64,000 nucleotides of DNA from Tyzzerella sp. An114 (lineage in GTDB: Bacteria > Bacillota > Clostridia > Lachnospirales > Anaerotignaceae): positions 186,001-250,000 of the forward strand of contig NZ_NFLT01000001.1 of NCBI RefSeq assembly GCF_002161055.1. Direction: 5' to 3'. Every line of letters starts with the position of its first letter. The first letter of the stretch is position 1. Shown one piece after another: positions 1,494 to 40,863 of the stretch. Under the pieces are notes generated by a model. That model was not told the DNA's origin. It ran no database searches and was given only the letters and a program-made list of their open reading frames with translations. The position numbers were made by a program, and so were the translations under genes.

Positions 1494-2834
1494 TTAAAGA
1501 AGACGTTTTTCAAGAGCTTCTTTTTCGCTTTCATATCCAGGTTTTCCAAGAAGAGCAAACATATTTTTCTTGTAAGCTTCAACACCTGGCTGGTCAAATG
1601 GATTGATACCGATAAGGTAACCGCTTATTGCAACAGCTTTTTCAAAGAAGTATACAAGATAACCAAAGTTGTAAGCATCCATAGCATCAATTTCAACTAT
1701 GATATTAGGAACTCCACCGTCCATATGAGCAAGGAGTGTTCCACCAAATGCTTTGCTGTTTACATACTGTAATGTTCTTCCTGCAAGGAAATTAAGACCG
1801 TCAATGTTTTCTTCATCACTGAATATTTCAAGTTCTGTCTTAGGAGTTTTGCTCCAGATAACAGTTTCAAACATTGTTCTGTTACCGTCCTGAATGAACT
1901 GTCCAATAGAATGAAGGTCAGTTGAGAAGTTAGCACTTACAGGGAATAAACCTTTTTTGTCTTTTCCTTCACTTTCAGCAAAGAGCTGTTTGTACCATTC
2001 ACCAAAAGATGTAAGGCAAGGCTCATAGTTTGCAAGTATTTCAACTGTTTTTCCTTTATGATAGAAAATATTTCTTAAAGCAGCATATTTGTAGCTGTCA
2101 TTTTCTTCAATGTTAGGATTGCTGTATTTTTCACGGGCATCAGCAGCACCTTTCATAACAGCATCAATGTCAATTCCTGCAACAGCCATAGCAAGAAGTC
2201 CAACAGGTGTAAGAACTGTAAATCTTCCGCCTACTGCATCTGGAATAACAAATGTTTCATATCCTTTTTCATTACAAAGGTTTTTAAGAGCTCCTCTAGC
2301 TCTGTCTGTTGTTGCATAAATTCTTTCTTTTGCGCCTTCAGCACCGTATTTATCTTCAAGCATTTTTTTGAAAATACGGAAAGCGATAGCAGGTTCTGTT
2401 GTAGTACCTGATTTAGAAATAATATTTACAGAGAAATCTCTATCTCCTATAATTTTGATAATTTCATTTAAGTATGTTGAGCTTATATTATTACCTACGA
2501 AATAAATGTCAGGTGTAGTTTTTGATTTATCTTCGTTATAGAATGGTGATTTGATGAAATCAAGAGCTGTTCTTGTTCCAAGATAAGAACCACCTATACC
2601 AATAACGATAAGAACCTGACTCTGTTTCTGAATTTTTTCAGCTGCAACTTTAATTCTTGCAAACTCCTCTTTATCATAGTCAACAGGTAAGTCAATCCAA
2701 CCAAGGAAGTCGTTTCCTGCTCCTTTTCTTTCGTGTAAATATTCGTGGCAAGTTTCTACTAATGGAGCAATATATTTGAATTCATGCTCATTAATAAAAG
2801 GTGCAACACCATGTAACTTTAATTCTACTGCCAT
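1494..2834 (-). CDS. pgi: Glucose-6-phosphate isomerase
   Basis: 446 residues with the start at the second ATG (2834). The SD GAGGAG lies only 3 nt from the first ATG (2840) but at normal distance from the second. The enzyme interconverts glucose-6-P and fructose-6-P in glycolysis. Family motifs seen are [30 protein letters not shown] (sugar-phosphate binding) and the C-terminal [11 protein letters not shown] containing the conserved lysine. The length matches the short, Bacillus/Clostridium-type enzyme (about 450 residues). It is transcribed alone from an extended -10 promoter, convergent with the XRE-cupin gene. Confidence 0.97.
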
Positions 2835-2882
2835 TTCCATTCTCCTCTCTTATTACCTTCACTTTTGTTCTAACGAACATAA

Positions 2883-2893
2883 TTATTATAACA
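2883..2893 (-). promoter_or_regulatory. Probable extended -10 promoter of pgi
   Basis: On the minus strand TGTTATAAT (TATAAT at 2890-2885) gives an extended -10 about 50 nt before the pgi start. The -35 is not recognisable. The rest of the 320-nt gap to the divergent gene at 3156 is AT-rich; a TATAAT at 3119-3124 could drive that gene. Confidence 0.4.
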
Positions 2894-3155
2894 TATTATG
2901 CAAATTCTTACCATATTTTTTTACTAATTTAATGCTCAAAATACATAGTTTTTTCACAATAATAGTTTTATATTTGTAACTATATACAAAAAACATGACT
3001 ATAATTGATAAAAGAAAAATATTTATAACAAAATTTACTGTTAAAATATTATAAAATATCCAAAATTATAATAATATTTGCACATATAAAATTTATGTAC
3101 ATAAATAATATAAAATAGTATAATAACTCTATAAAAAACAAAGGAAGTGTTAAAT

Positions 3156-34147: not shown

Positions 34148-35269
34148 TTAAAGTCTACATTTAAAATCATTATAATCAAAAGATTTTATAAGCTGTATTT
34201 CACCATTAATATTTTTAAAAGCAATCTGAGGAAGGGGCATACCATTAAATGTATTTGTCTTTACCATTGTGTATAAAGCCATATCCTCAAAAATAATAGT
34301 GTCACCCTCTTTTAAAGGATTGTCAAAGGAATAATCTCCCATAATATCTCCTGCAAGACAAGTTCCACCAGCAAATCTATATGTATATTTCTTTTCATTA
34401 GATTTTCCGCTATCTTTAACAGGTGGTCTGTAAGGCATTTCTATTACATCAGGCATATGACAAGCTGCTGATGTGTCAAGTATAGCAATATCAATTCCAT
34501 TGTTTACAATTTCAAGAACCTCTGAAACAAGATATCCTGAATTTAAAACAACAGCCTCCCCTGGTTCAAGATAAACTTCTACATTATATTTTTCTCTCAA
34601 ATATTTTACAATATTAATTAAAAGGTCTCTGTCGTAGTCATCTCTTGTAATATGATGACCACCTCCAAGGTTAAGCCATTTAAGACCTTTTATATACTTT
34701 CCAAATTTTTCTTCAAAAGCATCAACAGTTGTTTTTAAATCATCTGAATTTTGCTCACAGAGTGTATGAAAATGAAGTCCATCTATAATATTAAGTACAT
34801 TTTCATCAAAGTTTGATATTGTTGTTCCAAGTCTTGAGCCAAAGGAACAGGGGTCATATATTTCATGGCCTTCCTGTGTGGAACACTCTGGATTTACTCT
34901 AAGTCCTATTGATTTTCCACAATCTTTAGCTTTTTTACCATACTTTTCAATCTGCTTACAGGAATTAAAAACAATATGGTCAGCATATTTTAATATTTCA
35001 TCAAATTCATCAGCTCTGTATGCTGGTGAAAAAACGTGGGTTTCTCCACCAAACTCCTCAGCTCCCAGTCTAGCCTCATAAATACCACTGGCTGTTGAAC
35101 CGTAAAGATATTTACTTATAATAGGATATACAGAGTACATTGAAAATGCCTTCTGGGCAAGAAGTATTTTTGCTCCTGATTTTTCTGAAACATATTTTAA
35201 TATTTCAAGATTTTCAATAAGTTTTTTCTCATCTACCAAAAAATATGGTGTTCTAATTTTATTATTCAT
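34148..35269 (-). CDS. nspC: Carboxynorspermidine/carboxyspermidine decarboxylase
   Basis: 373 residues. It is a fold-III PLP decarboxylase of the CANSDC group, which decarboxylates carboxynorspermidine or carboxyspermidine (and, in cyanobacteria, a related enzyme handles carboxyaminopropylagmatine). The PLP lysine is Lys40 in LLAQKAFSMYS; HFHTLCEQNSDDL and LNLGGGHH are typical, and CSTQEGHEIYDPC and the C-terminal GTCLAGDIMGDY fit the family. Its start codon overlaps the CASDH stop region (shared base 35269), so translation is coupled. Last gene of the polyamine operon. Confidence 0.94.
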   Translation of the reverse strand: MNNKIRTPYFLVDEKKLIENLEILKYVSEKSGAKILLAQKAFSMYSVYPIISKYLYGSTASGIYEARLGAEEFGGETHVFSPAYRADEFDEILKYADHIVFNSCKQIEKYGKKAKDCGKSIGLRVNPECSTQEGHEIYDPCSFGSRLGTTISNFDENVLNIIDGLHFHTLCEQNSDDLKTTVDAFEEKFGKYIKGLKWLNLGGGHHITRDDYDRDLLINIVKYLREKYNVEVYLEPGEAVVLNSGYLVSEVLEIVNNGIDIAILDTSAACHMPDVIEMPYRPPVKDSGKSNEKKYTYRFAGGTCLAGDIMGDYSFDNPLKEGDTIIFEDMALYTMVKTNTFNGMPLPQIAFKNINGEIQLIKSFDYNDFKCRL

Positions 35270-36471
35270 CAGTCTACAAGCTCCGGATTAAATGATTCTT
35301 TCCAAGGAAGTCCCCATTTGTTTAATGCTTCCATGAATGGGTCTGGGTCAAGCTCCTCAAGGTTATATACTCCCGGTTTATTCCAAAGTCCATTTATTAC
35401 AAGCATTGTTCCAATCATAGCAGGCACACCTGTTGTGTATGATATAGCCTGTGAACCAAGTTCTTTGTAACATTCCTGATGGTCACATACATTGTAAAGA
35501 TAGTATGTTTTATCTTTTCCATCTTTTTTACCCTGGAATATACAACCTATATTTGTTTTACCTACTGTACGTGGTCCTAAAGAAGCAGGGTCTGGAAGTA
35601 CAGCTTTTAAGAACTGTAAAGGTATAATTTCTTTTCCTTCATACATAATAGGTTCTATTGATGTCATACCTACATTTTCAAGACATTTAAGGTGTGTAAG
35701 ATAGCTCTGTCCAAATGTCATAAAGAAACGTATTCTTTTTATACCCGGAATATTAAGAGCGAGTGACTCTATTTCTTCATGATGAAGAAGGTACATATCT
35801 TTTTCACCTACTTCATCAAAGTTATAAACTCTCTTTATTTCCATTGGCTCTGTTTCTACCCAATGACCATCTTCCCAATATGAACCTTTTGCAGATACTT
35901 CACGGATATTTATTTCAGGGTTAAAGTTTGTAGCAAATGGATAACCATGGTCACCACCGTTACAGTCAAGAATATCTATATAATTGATTTCATCAAAATG
36001 ATGTTTTAATGCATAGGCAGAAAATACACTTGTAACACCAGGGTCAAAGCCACTGCCTAAAATAGCTGTTATTCCAGCCTCTTTGAATTTTTCACGATAT
36101 GCCCACTGCCAGCTATATTCAAATTTTGCTGTGTCTTTAGGCTCATAGTTTGCTGTGTCAATATAATGTGTCTTTGTAGCAAGACAAGCGTCCATTATTG
36201 TAAGGTCCTGATATGGAAGTGCAAGATTTAAAACTGCATCTGGTTTATATTCATTAATTAAAGCTATAATTTCATCTGTATTATCAGCGTCAAGCTGTGC
36301 TGTTGTTATTTTTGTTTTTGTTGTATTTTCAATTTTAGCCTTTAAAGCATCACATTTTGATACTGTACGGCTTGCGATACAAATTTCTTCAAAAACTTCA
36401 CTGTTCTGACAGCATTTCTGAATTGCAACGGAAGCAACGCCTCCACAACCTATAATTAAAACTCTACCCAT
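35269..36471 (-). CDS. Carboxynorspermidine dehydrogenase-type (saccharopine dehydrogenase family)
   Basis: 400 residues. A Rossmann N-terminus (VLIIGCGGVASVAIQKC) and saccharopine dehydrogenase fold; pairing with nspC identifies it as CASDH, which reductively condenses aspartate semialdehyde with a diamine (1,3-diaminopropane, putrescine, or in the CAPA route agmatine) using NADPH. Other conserved blocks: GSGFDPGVTSVFSAYA and LDCNGGDHGYPFATNFNPEINIRE (split here only by reading order). A 25-nt gap separates it from speB. The substrate cannot be told from sequence alone. Confidence 0.92.
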   Translation of the reverse strand: MGRVLIIGCGGVASVAIQKCCQNSEVFEEICIASRTVSKCDALKAKIENTTKTKITTAQLDADNTDEIIALINEYKPDAVLNLALPYQDLTIMDACLATKTHYIDTANYEPKDTAKFEYSWQWAYREKFKEAGITAILGSGFDPGVTSVFSAYALKHHFDEINYIDILDCNGGDHGYPFATNFNPEINIREVSAKGSYWEDGHWVETEPMEIKRVYNFDEVGEKDMYLLHHEEIESLALNIPGIKRIRFFMTFGQSYLTHLKCLENVGMTSIEPIMYEGKEIIPLQFLKAVLPDPASLGPRTVGKTNIGCIFQGKKDGKDKTYYLYNVCDHQECYKELGSQAISYTTGVPAMIGTMLVINGLWNKPGVYNLEELDPDPFMEALNKWGLPWKESFNPELVD

Positions 36472-36496: not shown

Positions 36497-37345
36497 TTAA
36501 ATTGCTAAAAGCATTTCTCTTACTATTTTACAAGCTACTGCTGTTGAAGCTCCACTTTGGTCATAGTGTGGGCTTAACTCGTTTACATCACAGCCCACTA
36601 TATTACACTTAGAACAAACAAGAGTTACAGCCTTTCTAAGGGTATCAAAATCAACTCCGCCTGGTTCTGGTGTTCCTGTTCCCGGAAATACTGAAGGGTC
36701 TAAAACATCAAGGTCAACTGTAAAATATACAGGTTTTCCCTCTAATTTTTTAACAACATCTTCAAGAGTATCAAAATTGAATTTATTTGTTATAACGTGT
36801 TTTTCTCCCCAGCGGAATTCTTCTCTGTCTCCTGAACGTATGCCAAACTGATAAATTTTATTATCTCCGATAATATCCCAACATCTTCTAATAACACAGG
36901 CATGGGAAAGTTCTGCTCCAAGATAGTCATTTCTAAGGTCTGCATGGGCATCAAAATGAATTATATGGACATCTTCATATTTTTTTGATACAGCCCTAAA
37001 TGTTCCCAATGTCACAAGATGCTCTCCACCAATCATAAAAGGAATTTTTTTGTCATTTAATATAGTTTCTGCTCTCTCCTCTATATCAGCAAGGGCATTT
37101 TCTGTGATACCAAAAGATAACTCTAAATCTCCACTATCAAATATATTTTTATCAAGTAAATCTTTATCCTGATAAGGACTATAACTTTCAAGACCAAAAG
37201 ACTCATGTCTTATGGCACTACTTCCAAATCTTGTTCCCGGACGAAATGATGTTGTTGAATCGAAAGGTGCTCCAAAAAGCACTATATCAGCATCACTATA
37301 TTCACAGTCACAGGCAAGGAATGTTTCTATATTTCTATTCAACAT
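36497..37345 (-). CDS. speB: Agmatinase / ureohydrolase
   Basis: 282 residues. It is a Mn-dependent ureohydrolase with all metal ligands in place: GGEHLVTLG, HFDAHADLR and FTVDLDVLDPS; PGTGTPEPGG follows. SpeB turns agmatine into putrescine and urea; close relatives instead hydrolyse N1-aminopropylagmatine to spermidine. The ATG overlaps the end of speE by 11 nt. In this operon either agmatine or aminopropylagmatine would be a sensible substrate. Confidence 0.95.
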   Translation of the reverse strand: MLNRNIETFLACDCEYSDADIVLFGAPFDSTTSFRPGTRFGSSAIRHESFGLESYSPYQDKDLLDKNIFDSGDLELSFGITENALADIEERAETILNDKKIPFMIGGEHLVTLGTFRAVSKKYEDVHIIHFDAHADLRNDYLGAELSHACVIRRCWDIIGDNKIYQFGIRSGDREEFRWGEKHVITNKFNFDTLEDVVKKLEGKPVYFTVDLDVLDPSVFPGTGTPEPGGVDFDTLRKAVTLVCSKCNIVGCDVNELSPHYDQSGASTAVACKIVREMLLAI

Positions 37346-38186
37346 CTTTAAGCAACTCCTCTACATATGCAGGTATATAAAAGGCTCCCTTGTGAAGTGT
37401 TGTTGTGTAATATTTGCAAGGGAATTTATTTTTGTTCCATTTTTTCTCGTTTAAATCCTTTAATGGATGATATTTTTTTGAGGCAAAACCAAAAAGCCAA
37501 TGACCTGAAGGGTATGTTGGTATATGAGCTTGATAAACTCTACTTATAGGGAAAGACTCAACAATTCTTTTGTGAGCTCTCTGCATAGCCATTGCGTCCT
37601 CTGTATAGAAAGGGCTTTCATGCTGATTTACCATAATACCGTCATCTTTCAAAGCCTTATAACAGTTACCGTAAAATTCTTTAGTAAAAAGTCCTTCTCC
37701 CGGACCAAAAGGGTCTGTTGAGTCAACTATTATAAGGTCATACTCATTTTTACAAAAACGGATAAATCTAAGTCCATCCTCATAATATATATTCAGTCTT
37801 TTATCATCAAAGGCACAGGCTGTTTTGGGAAGATATTTTTTGCACACTTCAACAACTTCCTCATCAATTTCAACCATATCAATTCTCTCTATGTCTTTAT
37901 ATCTGGCAAGTTCACGTATAACACCACCATCACCTGCTCCAATAACAAGAACGTTTTTTACATTAGGGTGAACAGCCATAGGAACATGAGTTATCATTTC
38001 ATGATATATAAACTCGTCCTTTTCTGTTAACATCATATATCCATCAAGAGTTAAAAATCTTCCAAACTCAGGAGACTCAAAAACGTCTATTCTCTGAAAA
38101 TCACTCTGTGTACTGAAAAGCTGTTTATCAACTCTTATAGATATTTTTACATTTGGAGTGTGTGCCTCCGAAAACCAGAAATCCAT
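37335..38186 (-). CDS. speE: Spermidine synthase (aminopropyltransferase)
   Basis: 283 residues from ATG 38186, with GGAGAG upstream and only 5 nt after the speA stop. It transfers the aminopropyl group of decarboxylated SAM. MDFWFSEAHTPNVKISI is the typical start; the nucleotide-binding motif is VIGAGDGGVIREL, and the catalytic loop is VDSTDPFGPGEGLFTKEFY. The acceptor is usually putrescine, though agmatine-specific members exist. Overlaps speB by 11 nt. Confidence 0.96.
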   Translation of the reverse strand: MDFWFSEAHTPNVKISIRVDKQLFSTQSDFQRIDVFESPEFGRFLTLDGYMMLTEKDEFIYHEMITHVPMAVHPNVKNVLVIGAGDGGVIRELARYKDIERIDMVEIDEEVVEVCKKYLPKTACAFDDKRLNIYYEDGLRFIRFCKNEYDLIIVDSTDPFGPGEGLFTKEFYGNCYKALKDDGIMVNQHESPFYTEDAMAMQRAHKRIVESFPISRVYQAHIPTYPSGHWLFGFASKKYHPLKDLNEKKWNKNKFPCKYYTTTLHKGAFYIPAYVEELLKDVE

Positions 38187-38191
38187 ATTAA

Positions 38192-39655
38192 TCAAAACTC
38201 TCCTTTCAGCACATTTAATTTTTCTATGTATGGGTCTTCTGTTCCTGTCATAGAACAACCCATATCTTTTGCACATTTTATGTATTCAAGTATCTCCTCC
38301 GTTATACGCTCTCCCGGTGCAAGAATAGGAATTCCCGGAGGATAACACATAACAAATTCACTACAAACTCTGCCTTTTGTCTCATCAATAGGAAGGGACT
38401 CTTTTTCAGCATAAAAAGCTGTATTTGGTGACATTGCAACGACAGGAGAAATATATTCAGGCACAATAAAATCCATTTTTTCTTTTGAGTGAACTCGTCT
38501 TATTTCAGACATAGCACTTACAAGTCTTTCAATCTCTCTTTCTCTATCTCCTATTGAAATATAAGCAAGTATATTTCCCAAATCACCAAACTCAATCTGT
38601 ATATCATACTCATCTCTTAAAAGGTCATAAACTTCTATACCTGCAAGACCTGTATCAAGGGTAAATACAGAAAGTTTTGTTCTATCAAAATCATATATAC
38701 TGTCCCCGTTTATAAGCTCGTCAGAATAGGCATAAAATCCACCTATTTTGTTTATCTCTTTTCTTGCATACTCTGCAATTTCCATAACTTTCTTAAAATT
38801 TTCTTTTCCTCTCAAAGCAAGGTTTCTTCTTGATATATCAAGGCTCGAAAGTAAAAGATAAGAACCGCTTGTAGTCTGTGTAAGATTTATAATCTGTCTT
38901 ATATATCCTTCTGAAACTGTATTTTTTGCAAGTAAAAGGGAGCTTTGAGTTAAACTTCCTCCTGATTTATGCATTGATACAGCCGCCATATCTGCACCGG
39001 CTGCCATAGCTGAAACAGGTAAATTTTCACCAAAATATAAATGTGTTCCATGGGCCTCATCTGCAATACACAACATATTATTTTTATGGGCTATATCAAC
39101 AATAGCTTTTAAATTTGAGCATATACCGTAATATGTAGGATTGTTTACAAGAACAGCTTTTGCGTCTGGATTTTCTTTTATGGCTCTTTCAACCTCAGAC
39201 ACTTTCATTCCAAGAGGAATACCAAGTCTCTTGTCACACTCGGGATTTACATACACAGGTATAGCCCCACAGAGAACCAAAGCACCTATAACACTTCTGT
39301 GAACATTTCTTGGAAGTATTATTTTTTCTCCTTTTTTAACTGATGAAAGTACCATGCTCTGTACTGCTGATGTTGTTCCACCAACCATAAGAAATGCATA
39401 ATCTGCCCCAAAGGCTTCTGCTGCAAGTATTTCTGCATCACGTATTACAGAAACAGGGTGACAGAGATTATCAAGGCATTTCATAGAGTTTACATCTATA
39501 CCGACACATTTTTCACCTAAAAGCTCCACAAGTTCAGGGTTTCCCCTTCCTCTTTTATGCCCCGGAACATCAAAGGGAACTATTCTTTTTCTTCTAAAAT
39601 TTTGGAGGGCCTCATAAATAGGAGCTCTCTCCTGTGACAGCTTATTCACAGCCAT
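38192..39655 (-). CDS. speA: Arginine/ornithine/lysine decarboxylase (fold I); probable arginine decarboxylase
   Basis: 487 residues. It is a short Orn/Lys/Arg decarboxylase of the aminotransferase-like fold, with VPGHKRGRGNPEL near residue 30, DEAHGTHLYFG and the PLP lysine in VSMHKSGGSLTQSS. Presence of speB and absence of another arginine enzyme suggest it makes agmatine from arginine. AGGGGGG directly abuts the ATG at 39655, so the GTG two codons later (39649) may be the real start. It lies 16 nt after speD. Confidence 0.9.
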   Translation of the reverse strand: MAVNKLSQERAPIYEALQNFRRKRIVPFDVPGHKRGRGNPELVELLGEKCVGIDVNSMKCLDNLCHPVSVIRDAEILAAEAFGADYAFLMVGGTTSAVQSMVLSSVKKGEKIILPRNVHRSVIGALVLCGAIPVYVNPECDKRLGIPLGMKVSEVERAIKENPDAKAVLVNNPTYYGICSNLKAIVDIAHKNNMLCIADEAHGTHLYFGENLPVSAMAAGADMAAVSMHKSGGSLTQSSLLLAKNTVSEGYIRQIINLTQTTSGSYLLLSSLDISRRNLALRGKENFKKVMEIAEYARKEINKIGGFYAYSDELINGDSIYDFDRTKLSVFTLDTGLAGIEVYDLLRDEYDIQIEFGDLGNILAYISIGDREREIERLVSAMSEIRRVHSKEKMDFIVPEYISPVVAMSPNTAFYAEKESLPIDETKGRVCSEFVMCYPPGIPILAPGERITEEILEYIKCAKDMGCSMTGTEDPYIEKLNVLKGEF

Positions 39656-39671: not shown

Positions 39672-40430
39672 TCAAAATATATTTTTACCGTTAAAAATTT
39701 CTATCATTTCTTGACGCAGACTGTTCATAATAGAAAGCCTTCTTCTTGGTGGCAACTCATAAACATCTGTGTTAAAAAGATAGTTTTGTAAATCTATTTC
39801 TTTAATAAGCATTTTTGTATGGAACAGATTTGCAGTATACACATTAATATCAACCGAATCATATTTATCTAAAGTTTCATCAGCTATATAATCCTGTATA
39901 GAAGTTATTTTATGGTCTGTAAAAAGTTTTTTACCGCTTAAATCCCTTGTAAAACCTCTGACTCTGTAATCCATTGTTATAATATCAGAGTCAAAAGAAC
40001 CAATTAAAAAATCAAGAGTTGAAAGGGGTGTAATTTGACCACAAGTTGCAATATCAATATCAACCCTAAATGTAGCTATACAAGTGTCTGGGTGATATTC
40101 AGGATATGTATGTACTGTTATATGACTTTTATCAAGATGTCCAAGTTGAACCTCACCACTAGGAACCATTGAATTTTCAGCAATAAGTATTGTAACAGAA
40201 GCCCCTTGAGGTTCATAATCCTGTCTTGAAACATTTAAAACTCTTGCTCCTATCATATCAGCAAGACTTGTCAAAATTTTTGTGAGACGCTCAGAGTTAT
40301 ACTGTTCATCAATATATGCAATATAATCTTTCTGTTCTCTAGGTGTTTTTGCATAACATACATCATAAATATTAAAGCTAAGAGCCTTTGTAAGGTTATT
40401 AAATCCATATAATTTTAATTTCTGCTCCAT
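39672..40430 (-). CDS. speD: S-adenosylmethionine decarboxylase proenzyme (E. coli type)
   Basis: 252 residues from ATG 40430 with AAAGGAAG 9 nt upstream; the in-frame TTG at 40463 lies next to the terminator U-tract and is unlikely. It supplies decarboxylated SAM for SpeE. The self-cleavage site is LDKSHITVHTYPE, where Ser102 becomes the pyruvoyl group, and DIATCGQITPL and DYRVRGFTRD match the longer, E. coli-type class. It is the first gene of a six-gene operon (speD-speA-speE-speB-CASDH-nspC) and stands only 31 nt behind an intrinsic terminator, which suggests control by attenuation. Confidence 0.96.
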   Translation of the reverse strand: MEQKLKLYGFNNLTKALSFNIYDVCYAKTPREQKDYIAYIDEQYNSERLTKILTSLADMIGARVLNVSRQDYEPQGASVTILIAENSMVPSGEVQLGHLDKSHITVHTYPEYHPDTCIATFRVDIDIATCGQITPLSTLDFLIGSFDSDIITMDYRVRGFTRDLSGKKLFTDHKITSIQDYIADETLDKYDSVDINVYTANLFHTKMLIKEIDLQNYLFNTDVYELPPRRRLSIMNSLRQEMIEIFNGKNIF

Positions 40431-40461: not shown

Positions 40462-40500
40462 AAAAAAACGCAGACAATGTAAATACATACAATGCCTGCG
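40462..40500 (-). terminator. Intrinsic terminator immediately upstream of speD
   Basis: On the minus strand CGCAGGCA (40500-40493) pairs with TGTCTGCG (40476-40469), with four more pairs inside, then TTTTTTT (40468-40462). It ends 31 nt before the speD start codon, leaving no room for a promoter, so the operon must be reached by read-through or regulated antitermination. Confidence 0.9.
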
Positions 40501-40507
40501 TTGGAAA

Positions 40508-40571
40508 ATCTGCTTTATTTTAAATATCCAGACAAAATTATTCTGAATATTATGATTTTAGATATGCAGAT
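40508..40571 (-). promoter_or_regulatory. AT-rich hairpin between structured RNA and terminator
   Basis: ATCTGC (40571-40566) pairs with GCAGAT (40513-40508), with ATATC/GATAT inside. It lies between the structured RNA and the terminator and could be part of an expression platform. Pairing seen; role inferred. Confidence 0.35.
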
Positions 40572-40592
40572 AAAGTTTTCAGAGTCTATATA

Positions 40593-40797
40593 GCAAATAT
40601 CTTACTTTTACTACTCTTATTGACCGTTTCACAAGTTTTGTGTCGTATTCACACCGGTTATAAAGGAACCAACTTATAAAATTTGAGCTTCTAACTCAAT
40701 CAATAAGGCAACGAAAGTTACCAAGTTTAATCGGCTTTCGACCAGGCTGTCCGTATGGCCATAGCTCTTTTTACAAAGAGCGGTCGACAATATTTGC
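40593..40797 (-). ncRNA. Structured RNA upstream of polyamine operon, raiA-like
   Basis: About 205 nt enclosed by an 8-bp stem, GCAAATAT (40797-40790) with ATATTTGC (40600-40593). Inside on the minus strand I can pair TCGACC with GGTCGA, GCTCTTT with AAAGAGC, GGTAAC with GTTGCC, TTATTGA with TCAATAA, TTGAG with CTCAA, and ACCG with CGGT around a GTGTGAATACGACAC hairpin. Length, the multi-stem layout and the GTGTGAATACGACAC and CCATACGGACAGCCTGGTCG stretches fit my recollection of the clostridial raiA RNA motif; that name needs a covariance search. It has its own promoter at 40835-40863. Confidence 0.6.
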
Positions 40798-40834
40798 ACA
40801 AAGACTTCTAAAAATTCATCTTCATACGCAAAGA

Positions 40835-40863
40835 ATAATATCATAACTGGAATAATAAGTCAA
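40835..40863 (-). promoter_or_regulatory. Promoter of the structured RNA / polyamine operon
   Basis: TTGACT (40863-40858), 17-nt spacer, TATTAT (40840-40835). Transcription would begin near 40828, about 30 nt before the structured RNA and about 400 nt before speD. This is the only clear promoter between the PHP gene and speD. Confidence 0.8.

Follow-up and report, generated by a model that had tools for sequence, protein, structure and literature searches.

What is the RNA that lies in front of the polyamine genes of Tyzzerella sp. An114, and what does it do there? The locus is part of a 64,000-nucleotide stretch of contig NZ_NFLT01000001.1 that was analysed as a whole (hereafter the window), in which the original prediction had placed a highly structured RNA of 205 nt, with its own promoter and probably of the raiA class, directly upstream of a polyamine operon. 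The high degree of structure was borne out, as a 246-nt region folds better on the minus strand than 200 of 200 dinucleotide shuffles (z −3.3). The expected closing stem is present in the predicted fold, as 9 bp joining 40797-40789 with 40593-40601 rather than as a perfect 8-bp helix, and the outer pairing extends to 40827/40562. At least six further helices had been foreseen; the comparative model described below holds nine further nested ones (P2, P2a, P2b and P3 to P8). The segment 40593-40797 is structured as proposed, but its limits were too narrow, the model match running from 40802 to 40579. A sigma-70-like promoter is indeed readable by eye, with a 17-nt spacer between TTGACT and TATTAT, and would start transcription near 40828. 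Finally, speD follows the RNA and a terminator on the minus strand, in agreement with the predicted position before a polyamine operon. The terminator, a hairpin predicted at 40502-40467, appears as part of the same RNA unit, which is a terminator-bearing mRNA leader and not a free-standing raiA-like RNA.

The features of the leader and of the operon behind it are collected in the table. The speD reading frame probably starts at the ATG at 40430, as judged by eye; the listed TTG at 40463 falls inside the T-run of the terminator. The listed start of the speE reading frame is probably also too far upstream. After the CASDH-like gene the operon continues with a gene for 373 amino acids (34148-35269, minus strand), which by its position could encode the corresponding carboxy(nor)spermidine decarboxylase.

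Table. Features of the leader RNA and of the downstream polyamine operon, in window coordinates
Feature	Position	Strand	Basis
Sigma-70-like promoter	40835..40863	-	−35 TTGACT 40863-40858, −10 TATTAT 40840-40835, by eye
Outer pairing of the two flanks, closing the whole element	40562..40827	-	Predicted fold and flank pairing test
Conserved RNA element, model R1, P1 to GACUCUGA end motif	40579..40802	-	220.2 bits, E 2.8e-62
P2 domain, Rfam RF02440 (SpF59_sRNA / ldcC RNA)	40731..40786	-	62.1 bits
P6 domain (40681-40671 pairs with 40637-40627; P7 and P8 inside)	40627..40681	-	Predicted fold
Putative antiterminator strand (P8/P6 3′ side)	40630..40648	-	Complementary to terminator 5′ arm 40500-40483
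Intrinsic terminator (hairpin 40502-40467, T-run 40468-40462)	40462..40502	-	−18.9 kcal/mol; predicted fold
speD, S-adenosylmethionine decarboxylase	39672..40430	-	TIGR03331, 394.5 bits, cut-off 255.8
Orn/Lys/Arg decarboxylase-like gene	38192..39655	-	No NCBIfam model over cut-off; best is LdcC
speE, spermidine synthase	37335..38276	-	NF002010 403 bits and TIGR00417 330 bits, both over cut-off
speB, agmatinase	36497..37345	-	TIGR01230, 290.4 bits, cut-off 174.3
CASDH-like gene (carboxynorspermidine synthase family)	35269..36471	-	NF043000, E 3.9e-124, 415 bits, below cut-off 800

The proposed membership of the raiA class did not survive comparison with Rfam. Its length and its many helices recall the raiA motif (ModT, RF03072), which in the available text of PMC11706538 is likewise about 200 nt long and spread widely over the Bacillota. 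Infernal (cmscan) found no RF03072 match in the window at the gathering score of 101.3 bits and none up to E 10 within a 501-nt region around the RNA; 60 related genomes gave none either (0/60), although this was a weak search in which no control genome gave a match. We therefore reject a raiA-class RNA at the level of the Rfam model and regard this identity as having next to no probability. The present RNA is tied to polyamine genes and a terminator. Within the 501-nt region the SAM families gave no match up to E 10, and apart from RF02440 no RNA family matched the element to any extent of note.

The only family above its threshold in the window was RF02440, matched over its full length (positions 1-54 of 54) well above its gathering score of 37.2 bits. 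It covers only 54 nt of the element, occurs once in this genome and, among 14 control genomes, was matched in Lactococcus lactis. Rfam types RF02440 as 'Gene; sRNA', in keeping with the Streptococcus pneumoniae RNA F59 (also SN20 or srn235), which the tables and portions of text available list among the sRNAs, between SP0915 and SP0916 and with a promoter and a terminator (PMC2887815, PMC3395615, PMC12323649), at a tabulated length of 318 nt (PMC2887815). That the pneumococcal RNA is a full member of the element described here rests on the Rfam name. We take SP0916 to be a lysine decarboxylase gene. Both the Rfam typing and the pneumococcal tabulation would fit an sRNA that acts in trans, with a start that only happens to lie upstream of polyamine genes and an end at a terminator of its own, although a terminated leader would also show up as a stable short RNA.

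A comparative model was built from 34 elements, drawn from 93 with coordinates (31 of 40 chosen, plus those of loci L100, L109 and L111), which were aligned with MAFFT; helices were written by hand and then counted. In this alignment 93.7% of cells pair, and the compensatory changes sought in homologues are present: two-sided changes occur in 23 of 61 pairs, compared with 11.2 in shuffles and at most 17 when the pairing was slid, and the covariation score is 0.167 compared with 0.092 in shuffles. RNAalifold, applied to a first, over-gapped alignment, had returned almost no structure. The resulting covariance model, R1, has 216 positions and finds the element in the window at 220.2 bits, the next-best place scoring 10.5. 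Among 76 matches aligned by R1, two-sided changes were counted in 37 of 55 pairs (23.1 in shuffles, at most 24 slid), in an alignment that is fitted to the structure and so leans towards it; the matches came from 75 loci, one of them a 17.7-bit match on the opposite strand. Comparative support is slight for three parts because they show no, or nearly no, two-sided variation: P4 is almost invariant and never varies among the 34 sequences, a pseudoknot between AGAGU and ACUCU has no two-sided changes in the same set, and P6, with 97% of its cells paired over 76 sequences, changes mostly on one side. Conserved sequence extends over about 220 nt in the speD loci, up to the motif GCUAUAUAGACUCUGA, and many unpaired positions are invariant in the 34-sequence alignment, as would suit a complex aptamer.

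The element occurs in two architectures. Type II elements (L048, L050, L059, L062 and L081 among them) lack the entire P2 domain described by RF02440, so that P3 and P4 follow directly after P1, and keep the remainder together with the end motif. This suggests that RF02440 describes an optional part of a larger RNA, and the Rfam 'sRNA' is probably one optional domain of a polyamine-gene leader, which would explain why the family understates the spread of the RNA. Some individual variants were also seen. At L152 (1995-2470, minus strand) an element without the P2 domain stands before potA. Its P8 region is interrupted by a long stretch with inverted-repeat ends (AGCCGAACAGTAA ... TTACTGTTCGGCT), which resembles a small mobile insert. 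Six potA-type elements (L126, L131, L133, L138, L140 and L143) carry, by eye, a short additional hairpin after GCCGA and before P3, which may mark a subclass. In L073 (2580-2819) and L091 (near the model match 1487-1700) insertions that look hairpin-like by eye lie between the P1 3′ strand and a GACUCU motif, and the motif is retained despite them, which suits a tertiary role.

The association with polyamine genes was examined from both directions. Starting from speD, the 80 loci closest to the window gene were taken from 586 speD relatives, and R1 found the element upstream on the same strand in 77 of them, including three that are cut by a contig start (L036, L041 and L063); this count replaces one of 76/80 from a loose pattern, which was set aside. 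The Rfam core or a near copy of it lies upstream in 61 of the 80, the pattern missing type II elements. The three loci without a match are L032, whose contig has 153 nt upstream, L077 and L079. In the last two (2400-3060 and 1900-2500, respectively) speD stands without the element, and at L077 a hairpin with a T-run, terminator-like by eye, still precedes the gene.

Searches that started from the RNA gave RF02440 matches in 16 of 195 relatives and in 18 of 398 genomes of the phylum, and R1 matches in 49 of 391 genomes of the class; the counts are lower bounds, stricter filters having been used in genome searches over 40 genomes. Together they comprise 77 distinct genomes with 36 family labels. 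In 76 of the 77 a polyamine gene lies directly downstream on the same strand, the first assigned gene being speD in 33, an Orn/Lys/Arg decarboxylase gene in 19, potA in 14, a CASDH-like gene in 10 and an esterase-like gene in one (assigned from tblastn matches to the window operon and to one PotA, or from inspection of the open reading frame). Such constancy argues against a trans-acting sRNA. The sole non-polyamine context is that of genome G009, where a degenerate element precedes the esterase-like gene; this element (L155, 721-961; the same place as L092) scores 76.9 bits and is followed by a terminator. Three further genomes (G809, G831 and G869) have weak or damaged elements of 32-43 bits. 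Of 36 genomes from the window's own family, 7 have speD, and the element was found in these and in G009; the stricter filters also applied to the genome search behind this comparison and the next, which likewise gives lower bounds for the element. Nine order-level genomes with speD over the cut-off gave no element match, six of them also under laxer filters (a search in which 6 of 40 genomes were positive), and therefore speak against a universal link between speD and the element. A mobile or phage origin was considered and rejected: the exact 21-mer core is absent from IMG/VR, phage sequences gave no match, and a single match lies on a record listed as a plasmid, a 2.7-Mb Paenibacillus sequence on which a CASDH-like gene follows.

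In 90 of 95 loci examined the element is followed by a terminator-like hairpin, and the 5′ arm of this hairpin is complementary to the 3′ strand of P8/P6. When the 90 loci with a qualifying hairpin were reduced at 75% similarity to 40 clusters, arm and strand from the same locus paired at −14.2 kcal/mol, compared with −11.6 for permuted partners (0 of 20,000 permutations); 32 clusters beat their own mismatched mean and 8 do not. These permutations remove additive effects of composition, not shared ancestry. The signal is local: a 26-nt window slid over the element gave z −7.0, −8.2, −5.5 and −3.7 at offsets −18, −12, −6 and 0, that is at the P8/P6 3′ strand, and between −1.8 and +1.6 at the other 19 places. 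The test was repeated on further loci, chiefly from the class-level search and with type II elements (47 of 52 loci, forming 24 clusters), and gave −15.1 versus −11.2 kcal/mol (0 of 5,000), with 23 of 24 clusters beating the mismatched mean. This second set is not fully independent of the first, as L168 apparently lies on the contig of L057 and L115 and L119 resemble L012 and L058. Its terminators were, as throughout, picked automatically, and the arm taken at L125 looks like coding sequence. Single loci can be followed by eye: UUACGCAAACUUG pairs with CAAGUUGUGUAA at L129, and at L109 both sides have changed, to UGCUUG and CAAGCA. Covariation of the terminator arm with an internal strand, which a free sRNA would not need, further reduces the probability of a trans-acting RNA, and we consider that explanation improbable.

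The same P6 3′ strand is used by P6 and by the antiterminator, and the two are therefore mutually exclusive. In the 38 of the 40 clusters that were compared (L018 and L046 were left out), the antiterminator is the stronger pairing in every case (38/38), with a median of −14.7 kcal/mol against −7.0 for P6, the cost of a pseudoknot being excluded. The window copy has a duplex of 15 bp and −11.1 kcal/mol, which in the 40-cluster test scored barely above its mismatched partners (−9.3 versus −8.6 kcal/mol). A nested antiterminator would cost about 12-26 kcal/mol in the window at the four transcript lengths tested, so the pairing must be pseudoknotted or kinetic there; with so weak a duplex in the window copy, other copies may be better suited as model systems. 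The flanks also pair with one another across the element, at −19.6 compared with −15.2 kcal/mol when permuted (0 of 5,000; 48 clusters of 50 loci, in which the 5′ flank can extend upstream of the transcription start), with 7 of the 48 clusters not beating their own mismatched mean.

As in terminator-type riboswitches, then, a conserved structured domain lies in the 5′ leader of genes with related functions, and covariation indicates a terminator and an antiterminator that exclude one another and use a strand of that domain. We think it likely that the RNA is the 5′ leader of the polyamine operon and attenuates its transcription in cis, most likely as a riboswitch that responds to spermidine or a related polyamine. 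According to this model, when polyamine is scarce the P6 3′ strand (GCACAUCAACUUGU in many relatives) would pair with the 5′ arm of the terminator, P1 and P4 remaining closed, and the operon would be read because the terminator is blocked. When polyamine is plentiful, the element would lock into its folded form with P6 made, allowing the terminator to form and transcription to end before speD (or before the decarboxylase gene, the CASDH-like gene or potA), giving a switch of OFF polarity. The signal should be the end-product polyamine, as genes for synthesis and uptake are usually controlled by feedback.

An attenuator need not bind a polyamine itself, and the decision could instead be taken by a protein, the ribosome or another metabolite (SAM, arginine, agmatine or a metal ion), since neither the switch nor the association with genes names the ligand. 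Ribosome-mediated attenuation by an upstream reading frame was rejected because no frame is conserved: among the 93 elements, 62 have an ATG within the first 16 nt, distributed over all three frames (28, 21 and 13), and 31 have none there. We infer direct binding of a polyamine from the invariant positions, the lack of a conserved upstream frame and the lack of any other family match, and hold a non-polyamine attenuator to be possible but rather unlikely.

The potA loci bear on which molecule would be sensed. Of the 14 PotA proteins, four were compared with NCBIfam models: TIGR01187 was passed by all of them, and the spermidine/putrescine equivalog NF043075 by three. Neither TIGR03331 (SpeD) nor TIGR00417 (SpeE) was matched in any of the 14 potA genomes, the controls being positive in both searches; 7 of these genomes have a completeness of 90% or more and a contamination of 5% or less. 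We therefore consider that the RNA guards an importer in these genomes, which makes an imported polyamine a better candidate for the signal than any intermediate of the SpeD/SpeE route. Distant decarboxylase homologues are found in 12 of the 14, the best matches being 28-34% identical over long stretches, and these species may still make some other polyamines, the Bsu-type SpeD and the carboxyspermidine route having been outside the search.

In the literature covered, much of it as partial text, the element is nowhere named a riboswitch; a 2017 collection, which reportedly described 224 motifs, lay outside that coverage. A natural spermidine riboswitch has been described as a SAM-I variant (T. 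ilyis ldcC) associated with ldcC, speE and speB, in which, according to the sections available, spermidine causes transcription termination (PMC10853860), and the present RNA would work alike if our reading as a switch holds. That class is built on the four-stem SAM-I fold and is narrowly distributed, and in section 13 its authors expect that further classes remain to be found (PMC10853860), whereas the helices of the present RNA are different ones, without a counterpart among the SAM families searched. The two are probably unrelated, as judged against SAM families rather than the variant-specific consensus itself. Other RNA motifs linked to polyamine genes are odc1 and potE; by description, odc1 appears under a heading that gives the element an upstream reading frame (PMC8632094, in part), in contrast to the present RNA, which has no conserved one.

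On balance, we favour a second natural class of polyamine riboswitch, structurally unrelated to the first and far more widespread. Its aptamer, about 220 nt long and prone to pseudoknots, would so far have been concealed in Rfam behind a 54-nt 'sRNA'. The class would exist both complete and in a compact version that lacks the Rfam domain, and would guard synthesis where polyamines are made and the Pot importer in species with no detectable SpeD/SpeE. The element makes it directly testable whether bacteria commonly sense polyamines by RNA, since it is found under 36 family labels, covers both synthesis and uptake genes and has a readable switch. If this proposal is true, the pneumococcal "sRNA" would be recast as a terminated mRNA leader, and the element would account for the control of spermidine supply in many clostridial species.
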